Assembly (NCBI GenBank): GCA_000620545.1
Contig: JIBA01000012.1
Coordinates: forward strand, 434,001-498,000
DNA: 64,000 nt
Source: Intrasporangiaceae bacterium URHB0013
GTDB taxonomy: Bacteria > Actinomycetota > Actinomycetes > Actinomycetales > Dermatophilaceae
Reading direction: 5' to 3'
A program made the position numbers and the translations under genes. Below the pieces are notes generated by a model that did no database searches, was not told the DNA's origin, and worked only from the letters and a program-made list of their open reading frames with translations. Positions 29,721-55,919 of the stretch are shown piece by piece (the first letter of the stretch is position 1; each line of letters begins with the position of its first letter).

Positions 29721-30670
29721 ATGCAGCTGTCCCTCATCGCCCACGACGACGTCTTCCCCCTCGCTCGGGCCCTCGCCGTCGGCATCGACCGACCCGAGCT
29801 GCGGCGGCTCACCAGGCAGGGCCGGGTGCACCGACTGCACCACGGGTGGTTCTCCACCCGGGAGCCGGCCGACGACGAGGACCGGCACCGACTGAGGCTC
29901 GCCGCCCTGCTCCAGCAGTACGCCTCCCGCGCCGTGGCCAGCGACGCCTCGGCACTGCTCTTGCTCGGGTTGCCGACCTACGAGCCGGACTGGGCGGTCG
30001 CGCACCTCATGCGAACCGGCCCGACCGGCGCGAAGCGCACCAAGGCGCATCGCAAGCCCGACCTCGTGGTCCGCCCCTGCCTCGACGACGAGCACGCGGC
30101 CCGCCTGCCGGCGACCGAGCGGGCGGTGCATCCCGCCGTGGCCATCGCGCTGGCGGGCCTCACCGACCCGTGCGCGTTCCTGGTTCCGGCCGACGCCGCC
30201 CTCCGCGAGCGCCGCGTCACGGTGGACGAGCTCCGGCTCGCCGCCGAGGTGATCGGTCGGCGTCCCGGCATCGAGCGCGTCAGGGCCGCGGTGCAACGGT
30301 GCGACGCGCGCCACGAGTCACCGGGCGAGACGGTCGCCGCCTCGGTGCTGCACCGCCTCGGCTTCCGGACGGTCCCGCAGTTCGTCGTCCCGGGCACCGA
30401 GCCGTTCACCCCAGGCGGCCGGGGCTACCGTGCCGATGCCGGAATCGTCGGCACGAAGGTGCTCGTGGAGTTCGACGGGCGGTCCAAGTACGCATCACCC
30501 CAGGACCTGTGGGAGGAAAGCGTCGCGAGGACCGGATCCGCTCTCTCGGATGGGAGGTGGTCCGGCTCACGTGGGCCGACCTGCAGCACCCCGAGCGAGT
30601 CCGAGCGCTGGTGGAGGCGGCCCTGCGTCGCGCTGCGGCGGCCCGCCCCGCTGGAGGGGTCCGTGGGTGA
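29721..30670 (+). pseudogene. AbiEi-like/DUF559 nuclease-fold protein, frameshifted
   Basis: The first 265 codons encode an AbiEi-type HTH (about 1-50: DRPELRRLTRQGRVHRLHHG), a helical middle, and a DUF559/VSR-like PD-(D/E)XK core with YRADAGIVGTKVLVEFDG near 240. At about 30515-30520 (LWEE/KRREDR junction, DNA GGAGGAAAGCG) the reading frame leaves the family pattern; the -1 frame continues it as RIRSLGWEVVRLTWADL and ends at 30670. One missing base, as in GAGGAGAAG becoming GAGGAAAG, explains this. It could be a true mutation, a sequencing error or, less likely, programmed frameshifting. If unbroken it would be about 316 residues. A second member lies at 53519-54586. Confidence 0.75.
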
Positions 30671-30834
30671 GTCGGCGATGCGTCTCCGAGCCCGCGACCA
30701 GCGTTGGTTCCGACGACATGTCGCCGGACCGAAGCCGGGTCGACCGATCCTGCACAGATCCCGCGGCAGGAGCGGCGTGGCCTGACACGAGCCGGCGTGA
30801 CCGGAGGGCGTCGGGGACACCGCCCGGCAACCGA

Positions 30835-51968: not shown

Positions 51969-52005
51969 GGTCCGGTCGGCCTCGGGCATGTGGGACACTG
52001 GCGAC

Positions 52006-53568
52006 GTGGCACGTGGCGACGGTCGTTTGAACCATGACCTCATCCCCGGCGAGAAGGGCCCGCAGGATGCCTGCGGGGTCTTCGGCGTCTGGGCTCCGGG
52101 GGAGGACGTCGCGAAGCTGACGTACTTCGGGCTCTATGCTCTGCAGCACCGCGGGCAGGAGTCGGCCGGCATCGCCACCGGTGACGGGGAGAAGATCCTC
52201 GTCTACAAGGACATGGGCCTCGTCTCGCAGGTCTTCGACGAGACCGCGCTCAGCTCGCTCCGTGGCCACATCGCCATCGGTCACACGCGCTACTCCACCA
52301 CCGGCGGCTCCACCTGGGAGAACGCCCAGCCGACTCTCGGCGGCACCGGCCACAGCACGCTGGCGCTCGCCCACAACGGCAACCTCATCAACACCGTCGA
52401 GCTCAGGGCCCTCGTCGACGAGCACTTCGGCGGCGCGCGCGTCACCGGTGAGCTCGCCCGCGGAAACACCTCGGACACGGCTCTCGTCACGACGTTGCTC
52501 TCGGCCGACGAGGACCGCACCCCCGAGCAGGCCGCCCTCGACCTGCTGCCCAAGCTGCGGGGCGCGTTCTCCTTCGTCTTCATGGACGAGACGACGTTGT
52601 ATGCCGCCCGCGACCCGTGGGGTGTGCGTCCCCTCGCGCTCGGCCGCCTCGAGCGGGGCTGGGTCGTCGCGTCGGAAACCGCTGCGCTGCAGACCATCGG
52701 CGCTGCCGTCATCCGCGAGGTCGAGCCCGGCGAGCTCATCGTCATCGACGAGGACGGCCTGCGCTCGCACAAGTTCGCGGAGCCGCAGCCCAAGGGCTGT
52801 GTGTTCGAGTACGTCTACCTCGCCCGCCCGGACGCCGTGATCCGCGGCCGGGTCGTGCACGAGGCCCGCGTCGAGATGGGCCGCGTCCTGGCGCGTGAGC
52901 ACCCGGTCGAGGCTGACCTGGTCATCGGCGTCCCGGAGTCGGGCGTGCCTGCGGCTGTAGGTTATTCACAGGAGTCGGGCATCCCGTTCGGCCAGGGCTT
53001 CGTCAAGAACGCCTACGTCGGGCGCACCTTCATCCAGCCCTCGCAGACCCTGCGCCAGCTCGGCATCCGGCTCAAGCTCAACCCGCTCGAGCACACGATC
53101 CGCGGCAAGCGCCTCGTCGTCGTCGACGACTCGATCGTGCGCGGCAACACCCAGCGCGCGCAGATCCGGATGCTCCGCGAGGCGGGAGCGGCCGAGGTGC
53201 ACGTGCGGATCAGCTCGCCGCCCGTGCAGTGGCCGTGCTTCTACGGCATCGACTTTGCGACACGGGCCGAGCTCATCGCGACGGGTCTCGGCGTCGAGGA
53301 GATCCGTGCCTCGATCGGAGCCGACTCGCTCGGCTACATCTCCGAGGAGGGCATGATCGGCGCGACAAACCAGCCTGCCGACGAGCTGTGCTCGGCATGC
53401 TTCACCGGTCGCTACCCGATCGAGCTGCCCGAGGACGGCCGCATCGGCAAGCACGTCCTCGAGACGCTGCCGTTGTCGGTCCGCACCGGCCACGACCGCT
53501 CGGTCGACGTCGAGGGCGTCAGCCTCGGCGTGGGCCTCGGTGGCGAGAACGCCCTCCAGCACCCCTGA
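52006..53568 (+). CDS. purF: Amidophosphoribosyltransferase
   Basis: The product has 520 residues and performs the first committed step of purine synthesis. The glutaminase nucleophile is Cys23 in DACGVFG, so a 22-residue propeptide must be removed. The PRPP motif VVVDDSIVRGNT is near 367. Cysteines in KGCVFEY, WPCFYGID and ELCSACFTG fit the Bacillus-type enzyme with a [4Fe-4S] cluster. The GTG at 52006 gives the family start MARGDGRLNHD; GACACT six bases upstream is a weak -10 box. The last 50 bases are overlapped antisense by the nuclease gene that follows. Confidence 0.96.
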   Translation: MARGDGRLNHDLIPGEKGPQDACGVFGVWAPGEDVAKLTYFGLYALQHRGQESAGIATGDGEKILVYKDMGLVSQVFDETALSSLRGHIAIGHTRYSTTGGSTWENAQPTLGGTGHSTLALAHNGNLINTVELRALVDEHFGGARVTGELARGNTSDTALVTTLLSADEDRTPEQAALDLLPKLRGAFSFVFMDETTLYAARDPWGVRPLALGRLERGWVVASETAALQTIGAAVIREVEPGELIVIDEDGLRSHKFAEPQPKGCVFEYVYLARPDAVIRGRVVHEARVEMGRVLAREHPVEADLVIGVPESGVPAAVGYSQESGIPFGQGFVKNAYVGRTFIQPSQTLRQLGIRLKLNPLEHTIRGKRLVVVDDSIVRGNTQRAQIRMLREAGAAEVHVRISSPPVQWPCFYGIDFATRAELIATGLGVEEIRASIGADSLGYISEEGMIGATNQPADELCSACFTGRYPIELPEDGRIGKHVLETLPLSVRTGHDRSVDVEGVSLGVGLGGENALQHP

Positions 53569-54586
53569 CCGTTCTGCGCCCTGCTCCTCCGGCGGTTCGA
53601 TGTATTCGACGGTCACTCGTGACCGCGGAATACATCGAACCGGCGGCCGGTGTGGGTGTGTGCAGCGGCAACCTGGTCGAGGAAGAGATCGGGCTCGAGG
53701 CGCAGGCCTCCTGCACGAGCCGGACTCGGACCCGGCTGGCCGCGATGACGTCGATGCGTAGCACCCGGTCGCCCGCAAGCACGAGGGCGTTCTGGCGCAG
53801 GTTGTCCATCATGACGTTCAGGCCCTGACGGTGGTGCGCGCCGTCGATCTCGACCACGAGGTCGCAGCAGTCCCACCGGACATCGAGGTAGATGCGTCCC
53901 CGTGCGCCGTGCCGGACGACCTGACGGCTCGGCTCGGGCAGGCCGCGTCGTCGACAGCGACGCGCGAAATCCAGCTCGCCCAGGGACTCGACGCCCGACG
54001 CGATGTCTCGAACCACCGCCGAGATGAACGCCCTTCGCGTGCGTCCACGAACGGATCGTTGAGCCGCGGCCAGAAGGGGCGGAGTCGTGAGCTTCTGCTG
54101 GACGGTCATGAGCAGCACGAGAGCTGCCTGCCGATCCGAGACCGCCCAGTGAGCAGCGCGGACCGCGGCCACCGCCGGACGTACTCGCGGCACCCCCGAT
54201 GCGAGCACCTCATCAGGAACGCGACGAATGATCTTGTGGACCGTGATGCCCCGGGTGGCGACGGTGTTGTGGTTGTGCTTGGCGGACACGTGGACCCGGT
54301 CGTCCTCGTAGCCCTTCATCCCGGCAGCCTGCAGCGCGGTCACCCCGTCGATGGCCGCGATCGACTCCCCGACCTCCCAGACCGCGCGCCATCGTCGGGC
54401 GACGACATCGAGCGGTGCGGTGTGGACCGCGACGGTCTGCCTGCCGTGCATCCGCCACCGACCCGACTCGACGGCTCGGCGGACGTGGATCTCGCTCAGC
54501 CCGGCGGCATACAGCTGGCGGCGCGACACGACTCCGTCTTGGCTCTGCGCCAGTCTGCGCGCCGTGGCGAGCCGTTCCCTGTCCAT
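53519..54586 (-). CDS. DUF559/AbiEi-like nuclease-fold protein bracketed by palindromes
   Basis: The product is up to 355 residues. It starts with an AbiEi-type HTH (about 1-45: GVVSRRQLYAAGLSEIHVRRAV), a helical middle, and a PD-(D/E)XK-like DUF559 core: ELDFARRC, YLDVRWDCCDLVVEIDG and DNLRQNALVLAGDRVLRID near 270. After RIDVIA the frame loses the family pattern; another minus frame encodes GLRLEPDLFLDQVAAA just downstream and stops inside the palindrome, so a roughly 35-base insertion or frameshift may have altered the C-terminus. As read, the frame runs through palindrome copy A and 50 bases into purF antisense. The gene sits between purF and purM, which are normally adjacent. Confidence 0.72.
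   Translation of the reverse strand: MDRERLATARRLAQSQDGVVSRRQLYAAGLSEIHVRRAVESGRWRMHGRQTVAVHTAPLDVVARRWRAVWEVGESIAAIDGVTALQAAGMKGYEDDRVHVSAKHNHNTVATRGITVHKIIRRVPDEVLASGVPRVRPAVAAVRAAHWAVSDRQAALVLLMTVQQKLTTPPLLAAAQRSVRGRTRRAFISAVVRDIASGVESLGELDFARRCRRRGLPEPSRQVVRHGARGRIYLDVRWDCCDLVVEIDGAHHRQGLNVMMDNLRQNALVLAGDRVLRIDVIAASRVRVRLVQEACASSPISSSTRLPLHTPTPAAGSMYSAVTSDRRIHRTAGGAGRRTVRGAGGRSRHRGPRRG
53589..53646. repeat. Palindromic repeat copy A, 3' side of the nuclease gene
   Basis: A 58-base near-perfect palindrome. The arms GGTTCGATGTATTC (53594-53607) and GAATACATCGAACC (53628-53641) pair fully, a 2x2 internal loop follows, then CGGTCAC/GTGACCG around a two-base loop. Bases 53598-53646 match copy B at 45 of 49 positions in the same orientation. 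Confidence 0.9.
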
Positions 54587-54685
54587 GGCCTGAGGCTGGC
54601 GCACCGAGGGCGGCTGAGCGATCGTGAAGGCCAGCCCTGTGGACGCCGCGCACCGGGGCCCGGGGGGTGTGGACTCGTCACGCTC

Positions 54686-54739
54686 CCGGTCGATGTGTTC
54701 GACGGTCACCCGTGACAGCCGAATACATCGAACCGGCGG
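54686..54739. repeat. Palindromic repeat copy B, 5' side of the nuclease gene
   Basis: The same palindrome as copy A with slightly weaker pairing: TCGATGTGTTCG pairs with CGAATACATCGA with one G-T wobble, and GTCAC with GTGAC. It lies 100 bases upstream of the nuclease ATG and just before the purM promoter. The 49-base core (54691-54739) starts 1,093 bases after that of copy A. Confidence 0.9.
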
Positions 54740-54788: not shown

Positions 54789-55919
54789 GTGAGCGACGCC
54801 CCCATCACGTATGCCTCGGCCGGAGTCGACGTCGAAGCGGGTGACAAGGCCGTCGAGCTGATGAAGGCATCGGTGCGACGCGCCACCCGGCCAGAGGTCG
54901 TCGGCGGCCTCGGCGGCTTCGCCGGCATGTTCGACGCGAGCGCGATCGCCCGGATGACCCGCCCGATCCTGGCGACGAGCACCGACGGCGTCGGCACCAA
55001 GGTCGCCATCGCGCAGGCCCTCGACGTGCACGACACCATCGGCTTCGACCTCGTCGGCATGGTCGTCGACGACATCGTCGTCTGCGGGGCCGAGCCGCTC
55101 TTCATGACCGACTACATCGCCACCGGCAAGGTCGTGCCCGAGCGCATCGCCGCCATCGTCGGCGGCATCGCGCGCGCCTGCGAGGAGGCGGGGGTCGCCC
55201 TCGTCGGTGGCGAGACCGCGGAGCACCCGGGCCTGCTCGAGCCCGACGAGTACGACGTCGCCGGGGCGGCCACCGGCGTCGTGGAGCATGCCGCCGTGCT
55301 GGGTCCCCAGCGCGTCGCCGACGGTGACGTCGTGGTGGCGCTCGCGAGCAGCGGCCTGCACAGCAACGGCTACAGCCTCGTGCGGCGCGTCGTCGCGAGT
55401 GCCGGCTGGTCCCTGGACCGCCACGTCGACGACTTCGGTCGAACGCTCGGTGAGGAGCTGCTCGAGCCGACCCGCATCTACACCAAGCCGCTGCTCGAGC
55501 TCATCGCCGCGGACGGCGTCGACGTGCACGCCCTGAGCCACGTCACCGGGGGCGGGCTCGCCGCGAACCTCGCTCGCGTGCTGCCGACCGGCTCCTTCGC
55601 CCGCGTCGACCGCTCGACGTGGACGCCACCGGCCGTCTTCCGCACGATCCAGGATATCGGCCGCGTGCCGCAGGCCGACATCGAGCGCACCCTCAATCAG
55701 GGCATCGGCTTCGTCGCGGTGCTCCCGGAGGCCCAGGCGGAGCGGGCGATCGAGCTGAGCGAGGCCCGCGGCATACGCGCGTGGCGTCTCGGCGAGGTCA
55801 CCACCGAGGAGCGCGCGCACGCCGACGGGCTCGTCGCGGGCGGCACCGAGATCGTGCGCGGTGCCAAGGGTGTCGACGGCGGCGCCGTCCAGGTCGTGGG
55901 ACAGCACCCGACCGCCTGA
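54789..55919 (+). CDS. purM: Phosphoribosylformylglycinamidine cyclo-ligase (AIR synthetase)
   Basis: The product has 376 residues. Signatures are TSTDGVGTKVAIAQ near 64, VVDDIVVCGAEPLFMTDYIATGK near 90, GGETAEHPG near 142, SSGLHSNGYSLVR near 193 and HVTGGGLAANLARVLP near 257. It closes the imidazole ring to AIR. GTG was chosen for the leaderless promoter and the family N-terminus ITYASAGVDVEAGDKAV. Confidence 0.97.
   Translation: MSDAPITYASAGVDVEAGDKAVELMKASVRRATRPEVVGGLGGFAGMFDASAIARMTRPILATSTDGVGTKVAIAQALDVHDTIGFDLVGMVVDDIVVCGAEPLFMTDYIATGKVVPERIAAIVGGIARACEEAGVALVGGETAEHPGLLEPDEYDVAGAATGVVEHAAVLGPQRVADGDVVVALASSGLHSNGYSLVRRVVASAGWSLDRHVDDFGRTLGEELLEPTRIYTKPLLELIAADGVDVHALSHVTGGGLAANLARVLPTGSFARVDRSTWTPPAVFRTIQDIGRVPQADIERTLNQGIGFVAVLPEAQAERAIELSEARGIRAWRLGEVTTEERAHADGLVAGGTEIVRGAKGVDGGAVQVVGQHPTA

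Follow-up and report, generated by a model that had tools for sequence, protein, structure and literature searches.

We describe a gene bracketed by two copies of a palindrome, lying between the purine-synthesis genes purF and purM in the genome of a soil actinobacterium (G000, 4.57 Mb). The window, the whole stretch of DNA that was analysed, spans 64,000 nucleotides (G000:C10:434001-498000). The features that concern us are the following:

51988..53568, plus strand: purF, the left neighbour (TIGR01134)
53519..54586, minus strand: reading frame of the cassette gene, with an AbiEi-type winged helix, an AbiEi C-terminal fold and then a PD-(D/E)XK-like nuclease domain
53589..53646, no strand assigned: palindrome copy A (type A), on the 3' side of the nuclease gene (covariance-model match G000:C10:487589-487646)
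53709..53743, minus strand: 35-bp out-of-frame insertion relative to the G003 orthologue, after the catalytic core
54682..54739, no strand assigned: palindrome copy B (type A), 5' of the nuclease gene, upstream of purM (covariance-model match G000:C10:488682-488739)
54789..55919, plus strand: purM, the right neighbour (TIGR00878; start taken from the sequence)

The original prediction placed a DUF559/AbiEi-like gene between purF and purM, flanked by two copies of one palindrome and accompanied by no transposase. Matches to TIGR01134, TIGR00878 and AbiEi_4 confirm the gene order. Copies A (53597-53646) and B (54690-54739) are 92% identical over 50 nt, against an earlier figure of 45 of 49, and are spaced 1,093 bases apart. 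The sole gene lying between purF and purM has matches of the AbiEi/nuclease type, and no DDE, serine, or tyrosine recombinase was found there; nor is there a toxin partner beside the window gene, whose neighbours are purF and purM. Copy A begins 20 bases after the purF stop. Compared with dinucleotide shuffles, it folds with z of -5.1 and -7.1 on the two strands, and copy B with z of -2.5 and -3.0. When up to 2 mismatches are allowed, the arm TTCGATGTATTC is found 4 times within the window, all inside the two copies, where 0.45 occurrences are expected. Both copies are among the sequences from which the covariance model was built. A search for an Rfam identity returned only sub-threshold microRNA-model matches to the long hairpin, and was set aside.

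Copy A had also been placed within the 3' end of the coding frame. The overlap is real, and is partly the product of the 35-bp insertion, which alters the C-terminus of the window gene and lets its frame read through copy A. In the G003 orthologue, the gene's own stop codon falls inside the palindrome. The window copy of the gene, carrying this insertion, may be decaying. The window holds a second AbiEi/nuclease family gene (29739-30752, plus strand), which has no matched flanking palindromes (z about 1).

The protein family combines features of an antitoxin and a nuclease. The window gene has an AbiEi_4 winged helix (Pfam), and its intact relatives have a DUF559/PvuRts1I-like PD-(D/E)XK region, which bears out the PD-(D/E)XK-like core and HTH originally recognized. 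Profile matches of the nuclease region include PvuRts1I (E 0.0023) and 3hrl (E 0.044), and DUF559 is matched at E<=0.01 in 8 of 18 relatives. Across 18 relatives, D235 and E246 are invariant and D248 nearly so (numbering of L154, a Humibacillus protein). In the modeled structure of a relative that shares 73% identity with the G003 orthologue, the helix/strand order at residues 185-279 is consistent with a PD-(D/E)XK core; the AbiEi antitoxin fold occupies residues 1-196 of the relative, structural matches spanning 1-195 of the model. Sequence and modeled topology together point to a nuclease domain with the core fold, a catalytic D, and E-x-(K/D). Among the proteins scanned there is no match to an HUH/Y1 transposase, Pfam giving only AbiEi and DUF559/PvuRts1I/MTES_1575 REase-type matches. 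Three aligned members at locus iota (L115, L121, and L138) lack the catalytic E-x-D-G motif and have LVQS in its place. L121 and L138 are bracketed by repeats all the same, and thus an active nuclease in cis is not always needed.

The family is widespread. Of 118 genomes sampled from the class, 102 contain a match at E <= 1e-10, with up to 21 matches per genome; databases annotate little in these genes apart from the antitoxin helix and one domain of unknown function. The L154 protein has no match among 72,556 plasmid records, and one match, an unannotated record, among 50,697 phage records.

Bracketing by matched repeats was assessed in nine genomes of the genus, the window's own included, where a protein search and a PF13338 search, together with follow-up regions, yielded 56 distinct family genes; extra regions around weak PF13338 matches hold no family gene by the family HMM and stand outside the 56. 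Up to 400 bases on each side were compared by local alignment in both orientations, and scored against dinucleotide-preserving shuffles, for 54 of the 56 genes (the other two have short flanks). Matched flanking repeats reach z>4 at 36 of 54 genes and z>6 at 32; 18 genes are without matched flanks at z>4. The 36 include the window gene and L119, which pass only with the gene boundary moved inward of the palindrome: boundaries were hand-set for these two and L065, the initial ones of the window gene and L119 having run past a palindrome. At least one gene exceeds z 6 at 13 of the 19 genus loci. The shared repeat is more palindromic than its 40 shuffles in 24 of the 36 bracketed genes and not clearly palindromic in 12; the two repeats are inverted in 21 cases and direct in 15.

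Controls gave few such matches. Random segments of window DNA with the same geometry passed z>4 in 2 of 136 cases and z>6 in 1 of 136. Among 37 window genes called by codon-position GC, a set that includes the family gene at 29,739-30,752 and excludes the cassette gene, none rose above z 4. With the compared flanks shifted 500, 700, or 1000 bases further out, no more than 1 locus (0 or 1) per set of 19-25 passed z>4. For the 20 best-scoring genes, 0-9% of cross-locus pairs reach the score of the gene's own pair. Beyond the genus, 18 of 20 loci in named genomes beat all 100 shuffles (L169 and L173 fail; three of the 20, L156, L157, and L172, are taken as the same sites as L068, L074, and L079). 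Class-wide, 25 of 29 loci pass z>4 and 22 pass z>6, these loci being the best match of the best-scoring genomes, with a bias towards close relatives of the query. The suggestion of a palindrome-associated nuclease element is thereby supported: other family genes are bracketed in the genus, in the named genomes, and across the class.

Several loci merit separate mention. At locus theta, a family gene overlooked by the PF13338 search (L212:614-1785, G004:C9) has a near-identical pair of ~70-nt palindromes on its flanks, and its palindrome differs from that at the same site in G002. Long direct repeats that are not clearly palindromic flank family genes at L127 (G007:C33:438000-441500; 173 nt) and L120 (G005:C319; ~130 nt), as in target-duplication insertion. 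The palindrome at locus delta was rejected as a cassette end; this hairpin belongs to a neighbor gene and is present without the family gene too.

Each gene lineage has its own palindrome, of ~45-70 nt, at both ends. TTCGATGTATTC is the window's example; others in the genus are GGTTCGAGGTGATC, TTTGAGGTAGACGCG, GTGGAGTTCTTCCGGCACC, ACCGAGTAGGTCACAAC, and TTTCGCGCGCTC. The GGACGTCATACG palindrome is found at several Nocardioides and Marmoricola loci, and the CGTCCGAAGA palindrome in Kribbella as well as in two family f15 genomes. Paralogous cassettes within one genome have different palindromes, among those compared by eye. A palindrome type can be common to cassettes at different loci: type A occurs at purF-purM and rseP-dxr, and type A' at purF-purM and alpha. 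Among 25 type-A copies, two-sided changes that keep pairing number 69 cells, compared with 27.5 +/- 4.3 in shuffled data (0 of 500 shuffles reach the observed value) and 8-18 in slid controls. The copies come from 32 pattern matches, 4 of other length and 3 not palindromic being left out; the signal is that of the inner 12 pairs, the outer seven being fixed by the search pattern. These two-sided changes argue that base pairing itself is conserved, through selection or a copying mechanism.

Type-A palindromes are rare. The pattern matches 4 times in G000 (both flanking copies included), once in G001, 3 times in G002, 9 in G003, 2 in G004, 6 in G005, 4 in G006, 0 in G007, and 3 in G008; both G004 matches counted here and one in G006 have no palindromicity beyond the arms. 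A reversed control pattern has 0 matches in all nine genus genomes. These low counts (0-9 pattern matches per genome, 9 genomes) rule out a genome-wide terminator repeat, which had been named as an outcome that would undo the original prediction. The number of palindromes is not clearly tied to the presence of the gene, because G005, a genome 74% complete, has six type-A matches and no type-A gene was found in it. The covariance-model search scored 150 of ~1,300-2,400 candidates per genome.

Palindromes also occur alone. The original prediction asked whether other copies flank family genes: type A does so at rseP-dxr in G006, and the two further copies in the window's own genome do not, no family gene being found near them by tblastn. 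No family match was found around solo palindromes in 18 loci. Many solo copies lie directly after stop codons or in 3' spacers, where terminators sit. At solo site L149, the palindrome is present in G003 and G008, decayed in G000, and absent with clean junctions in G001, G002, G004, and G007; G006 has a different spacer. At L144 it is present in G003, G000, and G004, decayed in G001, and absent in G002, G006, G007, and G008. At these two sites, solo palindromes appear to be present or absent as units. Tandem arrangements were seen as well: at L075 (G000:C2:4500-11500), A' palindromes form tandem arrays resembling the BIMEs of REP elements, with some four units to either side of the gene in the stretch viewed, and the vacant alpha site of G002 (L181, G002:C12:36000-37500) is a tandem array of palindromic units of other sequence, with no family gene.

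Most family genes of the genus fall into ~12 orthologous sites. At the sites compared for vacancy (alpha, beta, gamma, delta, eps, zeta, eta, theta, rseP-dxr, and purF-purM) the family gene is missing in at least one species. Across the 9 genus genomes, purF-purM is a simple junction in 5 (G002, G004, G005, G006, and G007), holds an unrelated gene in 1 (G008), and holds a cassette in 3. This patchy presence disposes of a stable vertical locus, the other outcome that would have counted against the original prediction. The cassettes of G000 and G003 are type A and share one orientation, with genes 79% and flanks 94% identical. The cassette of G001 is type A', inverted, and 70% identical to that of G003, with flanks at 93%. 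In G006 and G007, decayed A'-type halves seem, by eye, to persist at the junction. Locus iota presents a similar picture: between G002 and G004, the cassette is inverted and 72% identical, the flanks are 95-96% identical, and homology stops in or near the palindromes. At these two loci, the alignments indicate that the cassette is replaced and inverted between palindromes. A ~1.1-kb difference in the serS 3' spacer of relatives was considered as a further family cassette and discarded; it has no family match in 7 loci and looks oxidoreductase-like by eye.

Locus alpha allows the histories of gene, palindrome, and flanks to be compared. By eye, the palindromes are type A' in G003, G000, G007, and G008, and type A'' in G004, G005, and G001. 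The gene tree splits exactly by palindrome type (100/100) and rejects a grouping of G004 with G007 (p 2e-8). The downstream flank tree joins G004 and G007 (99/99), the upstream flank gives no resolved tree, and the palindrome grouping is rejected by each flank (p 0.001 upstream, 0.016 downstream). In these trees two of the genes, those of G001 and G007, are broken, and the branch of G001 is long. At this one locus, the trees indicate that palindrome type is inherited together with the gene rather than with its surroundings. In addition, an A''-like half palindrome lies beyond the A' palindrome of G007, which hints at the loss or replacement of an earlier cassette.

The site between rseP and dxr exists in two states. 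G006 has palindrome-gene-palindrome, and at the same position G003 has one intact type-A palindrome and G004 a nearly intact one. By eye, the palindromes of G001, G002, G007, and G008 are decayed, and none is clear in G000 (8 genomes compared, G005 left out). One- and two-palindrome states of the same site therefore seem to occur, at this one locus. Insertion into a palindrome and excision leaving one account for it equally, because G006 is the most divergent genus genome (purM 92%). In G008, half of a type-A palindrome at this site (L180, G008:C1:120100-121600) runs straight into a GGAGGTGATC-type palindrome, possibly a nested insertion.

Several explanations can be weighed against these observations. 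Regulation would have the AbiEi-type protein repress its own gene via the upstream palindrome, with the downstream copy a terminator or second operator kept similar by the same protein, and solo copies serving as further operators or terminators. We consider this unlikely: it does not predict the exchange of the gene with both palindromes against unchanged flanks, the one- and two-palindrome states at rseP-dxr, or the tandem palindrome arrays, and a duplex operator gives no reason for two-sided compensatory changes at variable positions. Equally doubtful is the swapping of defense genes, in which restriction-like genes at fixed sites are exchanged by ordinary homologous recombination, and the palindromes are hairpin terminators made alike by gene conversion or template switching. 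All 10 proteins scanned match PADLOC AbiEi models, orthologous cassette positions are kept in many species, and quasi-palindrome correction could likewise maintain stem pairing, as this explanation would have it. However, none of the 37 window-called genes has matched flanks at z>4, exchange tracts end at or near palindromes while flanks retain their own history, and a palindrome type is common to different loci yet differs among the paralogous cassettes of one genome (compared by eye). The ending of exchange tracts at or near palindromes is explained by neither regulation nor defense-gene swapping.

The palindromes might instead be the true mobile units, REP/MITE-like sequences moved by something else, with the nuclease gene riding between two of them. 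Solo copies that are gained or lost as units, many of them in 3' spacers, are what such units would produce; even so, pairs match the gene lineage across the class, and type-A copies are as few as 0-9 pattern matches per genome. We regard this as very improbable.

We favor, at about even odds (a probability of roughly 0.5), the reading that palindrome-gene-palindrome is a mobile, replaceable, transposase-less cassette with palindromic ends, in which an AbiEi-fold module is fused to a PD-(D/E)XK-like nuclease. In the mechanism we propose, the protein would bind its own palindrome, in double-stranded form or extruded as a hairpin, and would nick or cut it; recombinational repair would then copy the cassette into a palindrome-holding site. 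Recombination between both ends would remove the cassette and leave a solo palindrome, which would decay, in a manner comparable to a solo LTR. Points that weigh against this reading are the 18 genus genes without matched flanks, the neighbor's hairpin at locus delta, the bracketed iota proteins that lack E-x-D-G, the type-A matches of G005, where no type-A gene was found, the solo copies at terminator-like positions, and the 12 bracketed genes whose repeat is not clearly palindromic. More tentatively, and short of even odds, these cassettes could constitute a new family of transposase-less selfish elements in most actinobacterial genomes: the AbiEi-type and PD-(D/E)XK fusion would recognize and cut its own palindrome or hairpin and spread by recombination, palindrome and protein specificity would co-diversify as lock and key, and solo copies would be empty targets or scars.

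Judged from sequence, the same arrangement turns up repeatedly among actinobacteria, with a separate palindrome for every gene lineage. It appears to enter and leave genomes as a single unit, and it looks like a selfish DNA element of an undescribed kind. A search of open-licence literature, which excludes preprints and most subscription journals, gave nothing relevant to palindromes around the DUF559/AbiEi family among the matches listed. Should the cassettes prove to be nuclease elements with palindromic ends, a large and so far hidden stock of selfish DNA could be read. It would supply many natural nuclease/palindrome pairs for studying the origin of new nuclease specificities, and would represent a second, independent invention of the REP/RAYT design, allowing direct tests of why such systems persist.

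The cassettes share features with several known systems. Free-standing homing endonuclease genes are selfish nucleases at fixed sites, with patchy presence and replacement by recombination. Homing usually destroys the target site, whereas the ends of the cassettes are palindromes and both copies persist after insertion. Integron cassettes with attC resemble them in that a gene and an imperfect palindrome travel as a cassette; in contrast, there is no integrase between purF and purM, and here a palindrome stands at both ends. Unlike insertion sequences and transposons, the cassette has no DDE, serine, or tyrosine recombinase. The type IV toxin-antitoxin system AbiE shares the AbiEi antitoxin fold (residues 1-196 of the relative), but no AbiEii nucleotidyltransferase toxin adjoins the window gene, its place being taken by a fused nuclease domain.

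Restriction-modification genes inserted with long target duplication (Kobayashi and colleagues; PMC3031569) combine a transposase-less nuclease gene, a long flanking repeat, and an unoccupied site with one copy. The rseP-dxr site likewise has the flanking repeat once where it is unoccupied (G006 versus G003 and G004), with insertion and excision both possible. The cassettes differ in that no methyltransferase lies beside the window gene (its neighbors are purF and purM), and in that their repeat is a lineage-specific palindrome also found solo elsewhere.

The resemblance to REP/RAYT units, noted in the original prediction, is the closest. One enzyme gene between two cognate palindromes is found in both. 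PMC2817692 describes REP palindromes that vary with the enzyme and carry complementary mutations, some tandem arrays, and solo palindromes elsewhere, all of which are shared with the cassettes. It also gives usually >100 copies of a REP palindrome per genome, with far fewer in some strains; the type-A palindrome, with 0-9 pattern matches per genome, lacks this high copy number. A GT(A/G)G head, which marks one end of REP palindromes, was not noticed among the cassette copies viewed. The enzyme differs as well, having an AbiEi fold and a PD-(D/E)XK-like domain with no HUH/Y1 match, and cassette palindromes are 45-70 nt long and of mixed orientation (21 inverted, 15 direct), whereas REPs at RAYTs are inverted. 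REP/RAYT, with its unrelated enzyme, is thus the nearest analogy to the cassettes, by design rather than descent.
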